From Nocardioides sp. (GTDB lineage: Bacteria; Actinomycetota; Actinomycetes; Propionibacteriales; Nocardioidaceae), in NCBI GenBank assembly GCA_025936915.1, contig JAICSK010000005.1, forward strand, positions 1-37,958: a stretch of DNA of 37,958 nucleotides. The letters are read 5' to 3'. Every line of letters starts with the position of its first letter. The first letter of the stretch is position 1. Positions 25,299 to 27,307 of this stretch are shown here, in pieces. The notes under the pieces are model-generated. The model was not told the origin of the DNA. It worked only from the letters and a program-made list of their open reading frames with translations, and did no database searches. A program made the position numbers and the translations under genes.

Positions 25299-25426
25299 TC
25301 GCGGGGTCCTGGCAGCCGGCACGCAGGGACTGGCTGTCAGCGTGCGTCTCTTCATATGAGACGTCTGTCCAGCATGTAGACACGGCGTACGGCGTTCCGG
25401 GTGGCCGCTCCTAGGGTGGGCACCAG

Positions 25427-25567
25427 CTCATCGAGAGGGACTGAGGGAACGGCCCGTCGACGTCCCGGCAACCACCACGAGCCTCCCGTCGTCCACATCG
25501 TCTGCGGCGGTTCGTGGGATCTGGTGCCAATTCCGTCCCGTGGCGAGGGTCGCCCGGGGAAGATGAG
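25427..25567 (+). promoter_or_regulatory. SAM-I (S-box) riboswitch
   Basis: CTCATC-gAGAGGgactGAGGGAacgGCCCgtcGAcgtCCCGGCAACC ... GGTGCCAATTCC...gGGGAAGATGAG; P1 CTCATC (25427-25432) / GATGAG (25562-25567). Confidence 0.92.
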
Positions 25568-25580
25568 AGGGAGGTACTCC

Positions 25581-26924
25581 ATGAGCGCGCTGGTCTCCGA
25601 GACCGATGCCGGCACGTCCGGCCCACAGGGAGCCCCAGCACCCTCTCGGGCACCTTCTCGGGCACCCTCTCGGGCGGACGACCCGAGGTTCCGGGAGGGC
25701 GCGTTCGGCCATGCCCGCGCCCTGGTGTGCCGCGAGTGCGGGCACGAGGTCGCGCTGGGTCCGCACTACGCGTGTCCGGAGTGCTTCGGGCCGCTCGAGG
25801 TCGCCTACGACTTCCCGGCAGTGACCCGTGAGCAGATCGCGGCCGGGCCGCGCAACATCTGGCGCTACCAGCCGCTGCTGCCGGTGCCGACCGACATCAC
25901 CGAGAGCCCCAACACCGAGCCCGGCTTCACCCGTCTGCTCAGGGCCGACAACCTCGCCCGCGAGCTGGGCCTGGAGAGGCTCTGGGTGAAGGACGACTCG
26001 ACCAACCCCACCAACTCGTTCAAGGACCGGGTGGTCGCCTGTGCGCTCAGCGCGGCCCGCGAGCTCGGCGCGAAGGTCTTCGCGTGCCCCAGCACCGGCA
26101 ACCTCGCGAACGCGGTCGCCGCAGCCGGCGCAAGGGCCGGCATCAAGACCGTCGTGTTCATCCCCGCGGACCTCGAGCGCCCCAAGCAGGTCAACAGCGC
26201 CGTCTACACCGAGAACCTGGTCGCCGTGAACGGCACGTACGACGACGTCAACCGGCTCGCCTCCGAGATCGCCGGCGAGGAGGAGGGCTGGGCGTTCGTC
26301 AACGTCAACGTCCGGCCGTTCTACGCCGAGGGCTCCAAGACGCTCGGCTTCGAGATCGCCGAGCAGCTCGGCTGGCGGCTGCCCGACCAGATCGTGATCC
26401 CGGTGGCGTCGGGCTCGCAGCTGACCAAGGTCGACAAGGCGTTCCGGGAGCTGATCGCGCTCGGCCTGGTCGAGGACAAGCCCTATCGGGTGTACGGCGC
26501 GCAGGCCACCGGCTGCTCGCCGGTCAGCATCGCCTACAAGACCCAGGCGCCGGCGATCCGCCCGGTGAAGCCCGACACCATCGCCAAGAGCCTGGCGATC
26601 GGCAACCCGGCCGACGGCATCTACGTGCTGGACATCTGCCGGCGTAGCGGCGGAGCGGTCGAGGACGTCACCGACCACCAGATCCGCGCGGGCATCCTGC
26701 TGCTGGCCCGTACCGAGGGCATCTTCACCGAGACCGCGGGCGGCACCACCGTCGCCTGTCTGAAGAAGCTGGTCGAGACCGGCCAGCTGGATCCGGCCCT
26801 GGAGACCGTCGTGATCAACACCGGGATGGGCCTGAAGACCCTCGACGCCGTCGGCGACTCGGTGGGTGCTGCCGCCACGATCGACCCGTCGTACGCTGCC
26901 TTCACCGCCACCGGCATCGCCTGA
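25581..26924 (+). CDS. Threonine-synthase-family PLP enzyme (zinc-ribbon N-terminus); possible O-phosphohomoserine-dependent homocysteine synthase
   Basis: CRECGHEVALGPHYACPECFGPLEVAYDF, STNPTNSFKDRVV (PLP lysine), CPSTGNLANAVAAAGARAG, NTGMGLKTLD; RBS GGGAGG. thrC-like; substrate specificity inferred from context only. Confidence 0.92.
   Translation: MSALVSETDAGTSGPQGAPAPSRAPSRAPSRADDPRFREGAFGHARALVCRECGHEVALGPHYACPECFGPLEVAYDFPAVTREQIAAGPRNIWRYQPLLPVPTDITESPNTEPGFTRLLRADNLARELGLERLWVKDDSTNPTNSFKDRVVACALSAARELGAKVFACPSTGNLANAVAAAGARAGIKTVVFIPADLERPKQVNSAVYTENLVAVNGTYDDVNRLASEIAGEEEGWAFVNVNVRPFYAEGSKTLGFEIAEQLGWRLPDQIVIPVASGSQLTKVDKAFRELIALGLVEDKPYRVYGAQATGCSPVSIAYKTQAPAIRPVKPDTIAKSLAIGNPADGIYVLDICRRSGGAVEDVTDHQIRAGILLLARTEGIFTETAGGTTVACLKKLVETGQLDPALETVVINTGMGLKTLDAVGDSVGAAATIDPSYAAFTATGIA
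25638..25673 (+). repeat. Three tandem 12-bp units encoding (APSR)3
   Basis: gcaccctctcgg / gcaccttctcgg / gcaccctctcgg. Confidence 0.95.
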
Positions 26925-26937
26925 GACCTCGAGTGTC

Positions 26938-27004
26938 GGGATAGTCCGTGACGAAACGGTCCTCGATCCACCGATTTTGGGGCCGTTTCGTCACGGACTA
27001 TCCC
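26938..27004. repeat. Perfect 22-bp inverted repeat (extendable by 4 G-C/G-U pairs)
   Basis: GGGATAGTCCGTGACGAAACGG (26938-26959) / CCGTTTCGTCACGGACTATCCC (26983-27004). Confidence 0.97.
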
Positions 27005-27028
27005 CAATGTCGCCGACAAGGAGAACCC

Positions 27029-27307
27029 ATGAGTGTGTCCGTCCGCATCCCGACGATCCTGCGCACCTACACGGGCGGCGAGTCGGAGGTCACCGCGAAC
27101 GGCGAGACCCTGGCCGCGGTCCTCGACGACCTCGACAGCAACTATTCCGGGATCAAGGGCCGGATCGTCGACGAGCAGGGTGAGCTCCGCAGGTTCGTCA
27201 ACGTGTACGTCGGCAACGACGACGTCCGCTTTCTCGACAGCCTGGCCACCGCCACACCCGAAGGCACCCAGATCTCGGTCATCCCGGCCGTCGCCGGCGG
27301 ATGCTAG
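27029..27307 (+). CDS. MoaD/ThiS-family sulfur carrier protein, CysO-like
   Basis: MSVSVRIPTILRTYTGGESEVTANGETLAAVLDDLDSNYSGIKGRI...RRFVNVYVGNDDVRF...ISVIPAVAGGC*; AAGGAG RBS. Confidence 0.93.
   Translation: MSVSVRIPTILRTYTGGESEVTANGETLAAVLDDLDSNYSGIKGRIVDEQGELRRFVNVYVGNDDVRFLDSLATATPEGTQISVIPAVAGGC

Follow-up and report, generated by a model that had tools for sequence, protein, structure and literature searches.

In Wolinella, the HcyS/HcyD system produces homocysteine from a carrier thiocarboxylate and trims an extra C-terminal residue, but it pairs an acylhomoserine with a MetY-type enzyme and not O-phosphohomoserine with a ThrC-type one. In Streptomyces, thiocarboxylated MetO reportedly serves as sulfur donor, and the MetM/MetO pair is said to be widespread. 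MetM was presented there as a novel homocysteine synthase that acts on O-phosphohomoserine (Hasebe et al. 2024, doi 10.1128/aem.01247-24, as cited in PMC12172450). The passages of PMC12172450 that deal with S. albulus describe a SAM riboswitch upstream of metM, a carrier gene metO, and methionine auxotrophy that is prevented by MetM. In vitro, a Microcystis homologue that shares 52% identity with S. albulus MetM showed chiefly threonine synthase/deaminase activity (PMC12172450). A protein thiocarboxylate pathway is mentioned in PMC5764234. The CysO-CysM-Mec pathway belongs to Mycobacterium tuberculosis (PMC3227635).

The window analysed here, a stretch of 37,958 nucleotides from Nocardioides sp., corresponds to contig C202 in a draft genome of 3.44 Mb (286 contigs, 94.2% complete, 3.6% contaminated). 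Judged from its sequence, it very probably carries an operon for homocysteine synthesis of the MetM/MetO type, with feedback by SAM. With the S. albulus system, as far as PMC12172450 describes it, the window shares a ThrC-like enzyme, a neighbouring metO and an upstream SAM riboswitch; it differs in genus, in a carrier ending GGC and in a palindrome inserted between the two genes. Streptomyces loci encode an enzyme 66-68% identical to that of the window, with a MetO carrier downstream. The preliminary description of this DNA had mentioned a report of a ThrC-like homocysteine synthase in Streptomyces, and such a report exists (Hasebe et al. 2024, as cited in PMC12172450). Because the system has already been described there, we regard the window as its further member and propose no new mechanism. 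To the mycobacterial pathway the likeness lies in the carrier fold, the MoeZ activation and the JAMM peptidase logic, but CysM uses O-phosphoserine and yields cysteine, and the window's genome has its own mec-cysO-cysM elsewhere.

The metM gene (25581 to 26924, plus strand; ATG 25581, stop 26924) was delimited by its open reading frame, profile matches and motifs, and encodes a threonine-synthase-like PLP enzyme of 447 amino acids. Its nearest named relatives by gene sequence are from Nocardioides. The protein has the PALP fold (Pfam, 228 bits), reaches 254.9 bits against the NCBIfam thrC model TIGR00260 (cut-off 167.1) and, with 285.7 bits, stays just under the PRK08197 cut-off of 303. Since MetM passes the cut-off of the threonine synthase model, the two activities cannot be told apart by family models. 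The PLP-lysine motif reads PTNSFKDRVV in the window, where it is accompanied by an N-terminal CxxC...CxxC pair; PT[NH]SFKDRVV and the same cysteine pair recur in every complete MetM of the relatives' loci. Canonical ThrCs (solved structures 2d1f, 1uim and 2zsj) resemble MetM in fold, PLP lysine and probably substrate, but they and the genome's own ThrC (PTGSFKDRGM) carry PTGSFKDRG at this place, and the latter has neither the N-terminal cysteine pair nor a SAM riboswitch. We suggest that the N/H and V positions beside the PLP lysine are candidate specificity residues. The metM product is very probably an O-phosphohomoserine-dependent homocysteine synthase. A third ThrC-like protein of the genome (contig C22, L047:4179-5390, minus strand; PRK08197, 616.8 bits) has PTGTFKARG instead of PTGSFKDRG.

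Upstream of metM, on the plus strand, positions 25425 to 25569 hold a SAM-I (S-box) riboswitch aptamer (Rfam RF00162, 67.9 bits, E 6.2e-14). The covariance match covers model positions 1-108, that is the full length, and lies well above the gathering score of 44.4. The preliminary description had placed an S-box leader directly before a thrC-family gene and had named RF00162 as the check; aptamer and gene family both hold, but the leader starts at 25425 and not at 25427. At 25562 to 25575 (plus strand, read from the sequence), the 3´ strand of the closing helix P1 (GAUGAGAG) runs directly into the ribosome-binding site GGGAGG, which likely makes a translational OFF switch. In the 60 relatives, as in the window, this strand (typically GAUGAG) adjoins a purine-rich ribosome-binding stretch, and the distance from P1 to the start codon is 6-18 nt in 59 of them, the last one being a start-site call of 0. 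As so small a gap leaves too little room for a separate terminator/anti-terminator, closing of P1 over or beside the ribosome-binding site would be the simplest off-switch. Pairing of the start codon with the 5´ strand of P1 was dropped as a mechanism, because the P1-to-start spacing varies. At one relative's locus, a c-di-AMP riboswitch (RF00379, 61.6 bits; L129:2789-2939, minus strand) lies on the opposite strand, several hundred bases downstream of the metM-metO pair.

The second gene, metO (27029 to 27307, plus strand; ATG 27029, stop 27307), encodes a ThiS/MoaD-type sulfur carrier of 92 amino acids (PF02597, 49 bits) with the C-terminus ...IPAVAGGC. Its best solved relatives are 3dwg chain C, a 9.5 kDa culture filtrate antigen of mycobacterial origin (E 1e-28), and the ThiS/MoaD protein 4n6e. 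The 9.5 kDa protein is CysO. The earlier view of a CysO-like MoaD/ThiS carrier is thus borne out by family and nearest structure, but not in its ending: one Cys follows the GG, whereas the CysO of the same genome ends in GG. Identity with CysO itself was rejected, because the genome's CysO sits on another contig (C10) with mec and cysM, genes to which the window's carrier is not linked.

Genes that such a pathway would need occur in the rest of the genome. Contig C155 reads argS-lysA-hom-thrC-thrB-rho, so that the hom-thrC-thrB context belongs to a canonical ThrC and not to MetM, to which this ThrC is 36% identical; the search for a second thrC, set by the preliminary description as a check, thus had a positive outcome. 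Hom and ThrB, recognized by sequence and gene order, would supply O-phosphohomoserine. On contig C10, the gene for a 94-aa carrier with a GG end stands between a JAMM/Mec-like and a CysM-like gene; apart from those scored by profiles, gene names on C155 and C10 were read from translations. One MoeZ-like protein (ThiF + rhodanese) is encoded on C152 and a B12-dependent methionine synthase (MetH) on C159. The suggested search for metX gave only partial matches in this 94%-complete draft, the best at 30.8 bits, where true MetX in relatives reaches about 400-450 bits, and MetA had no match in the same draft. Lack of these other homocysteine routes is expected if MetM is the route, though not strictly defining, and in a draft of 286 contigs the MetX absence could be a gap. 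PF01053 finds a single full-length protein in the genome, nearest to cystathionine gamma-lyase and under that model's cut-off. With no acylated homoserine, O-phosphohomoserine would be the only activated homoserine left. The second ThrC, the missing MetX and MetA and the presence of MoeZ-like, Mec-like and MetH genes support, at the level of sequence, the original proposal that this enzyme makes homocysteine from O-phosphohomoserine.

We searched 296 genomes of the class, all at least 95% complete except the window's own, for MetM and for MetX. MetM scores are bimodal; MetX presence was decided by the score gap (about 400-450 versus about 30 bits), because no control meets the TIGR01392 cut-off of 500 bits. 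After omission of ambiguous genomes (7 for MetX, 2 for MetM), 287 were scored, the lists having been copied manually out of the two tables. MetX alone is present in 108 genomes, MetM alone in 92, both in 84 and neither in 3 (Fisher P 2e-21, kinship ignored). MetX is therefore found in all but 3 of the genomes without MetM, and the two enzymes together account for nearly every genome in the sampled class. The only MetM-less genome in the sample of the window's own genus, G054, does have MetX, and its sole carrier is of the CysO type, beside mec and cysM. For want of MetX, and with metM annotated "threonine synthase", many actinobacteria give the appearance of methionine auxotrophs; the constant SAM riboswitch link together with PT[NH]SFKDRVV offers a simple means to re-annotate it. 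The near-complete genomes with neither enzyme are G178 and G335 (one genus, f27 g69) and G129; these are possibly auxotrophs or use another homocysteine route.

The pathway that we favour would run as follows. Hom and ThrB would provide O-phosphohomoserine. The extra Cys would be trimmed from MetO, probably by the Mec-like JAMM peptidase, whereupon the MoeZ-like enzyme would adenylate the exposed GG end and load it with sulfur. O-phosphohomoserine bound to the PLP of MetM would then expel its phosphate and accept the sulfur of the MetO thiocarboxylate at the gamma carbon; the resulting homocysteine might leave the carrier directly or through Mec-type hydrolysis, and MetH would methylate it to methionine. 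When SAM is high, P1 would close and, as it runs into the ribosome-binding site, translation would be blocked. Threonine would be made from the same substrate by the canonical ThrC on C155.

The enzyme might instead be a second threonine synthase, with SAM control balancing threonine against methionine and with an unrelated carrier. The NCBIfam score above the threonine synthase cut-off and the in vitro activity of the Microcystis homologue (PMC12172450) speak in its favour, yet the genome already has a canonical ThrC, MetX accompanies the loss of MetM, and SAM control of threonine synthesis would leave the homocysteine step unfilled. We consider this very improbable; the separate hom-thrC-thrB cluster and the complementarity with MetX led us to reject a role as second ThrC only. 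A fortuitous or degenerate riboswitch with no regulatory role is scarcely credible. The plain minimum-energy fold of the window's leader is, admittedly, no better than that of shuffled sequence (z 0.2), which is a weak test for a GC-rich leader without ligand; since plain folding gave no signal, we rely on the covariance model and on conservation. Besides the full-length match in the window, a SAM-I aptamer (61-89 bits) lies upstream of metM at all 60 loci sampled across the class, those from families far from the window's included, and this constant placement argues against chance. No SAM-I riboswitch was found in the control stretches of the same genome, namely those of hom-thrC-thrB, mec-cysO-cysM, the third ThrC-like gene, the PF01053 gene, metH and moeZ.

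Assuming that MetM does make homocysteine, its sulfur might still come as free sulfide or from CysO, the adjacent carrier being a helper or serving another purpose. In the same 60-locus sample, the roughly 1.5 kb downstream of metM hold no carrier at 5 loci, and in the genomes concerned a CysO-type carrier forms part of a mec-cysO-cysM arrangement (directly observed in 4, judged by its neighbours in 1), further carriers being weak matches at most. Loss of the carrier takes at least three changes on well-supported branches (quick tree from the relatives' rows, window row excluded). On the other hand, a carrier follows metM at the remaining 55 loci, often overlapping it by 4 nt, and G054 has lost MetM and MetO together. 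We thus hold this source of sulfur to be unlikely and prefer donation by MetO, although MetM in the orphan genomes, with their CysO-type carrier, may use CysO or free sulfide. Orphan MetM occurs in Lentzea, Saccharothrix, Actinokineospora, Nakamurella and others, and such lineages make the carrier dependence testable. Loci that have metM but no nearby carrier gene are L097, L100, L102, L103 and L104, and also L209, L215, L217, L222 and L233.

The tail of MetO deserves separate attention. Following the carrier's GG, the 60 loci show no further residue in 36 cases, C in 17, A in 1 and AG in 1, the adjacent carrier being absent in 5; CysO-type carriers of other genomes are tailed as well (SH, SR, A), beside a JAMM gene. 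Since a tail must go before thiocarboxylation, a Mec-type peptidase is its likely trimmer. Precedents for tail trimming are QbsE/QbsD and HcyS/HcyD. As a tentative idea, which we hold with low confidence, MetO would be a pro-carrier whose GGC, chemically the same end as in the CysO-cysteine product, needs trimming by the Mec peptidase of the cysteine pathway, and the MetM of several lineages would have dropped MetO in favour of sulfur from CysO or free sulfide. If this were true, the cysteine and methionine branches would share one carrier-processing system.

The 104-nt gap between metM and metO holds a perfect 22-bp inverted repeat (26938 to 27004, no strand assigned; the stem is longer when folded), which half-site counts and RNA folding mark as a copy of a dispersed palindromic element. 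With at most 3 mismatches allowed, its half-site turns up 25 times in the genome and the reversed control 0 times; an offset of 44-46 nt is common to 9 head-to-head pairs. Among the loci searched, an exact 14-base core of the repeat is confined to this genome. The whole is a dispersed REP/MITE-like element of about 67 bp with at least 9 head-to-head copies in the genome, one of them inserted between metM and metO and others on C27, C66, C103 (two), C138, C178, C189 and C251. As RNA, the copy in the window folds into a hairpin of very high stability (-60.2 kcal/mol, z -6.2), which could affect the metM:metO ratio.
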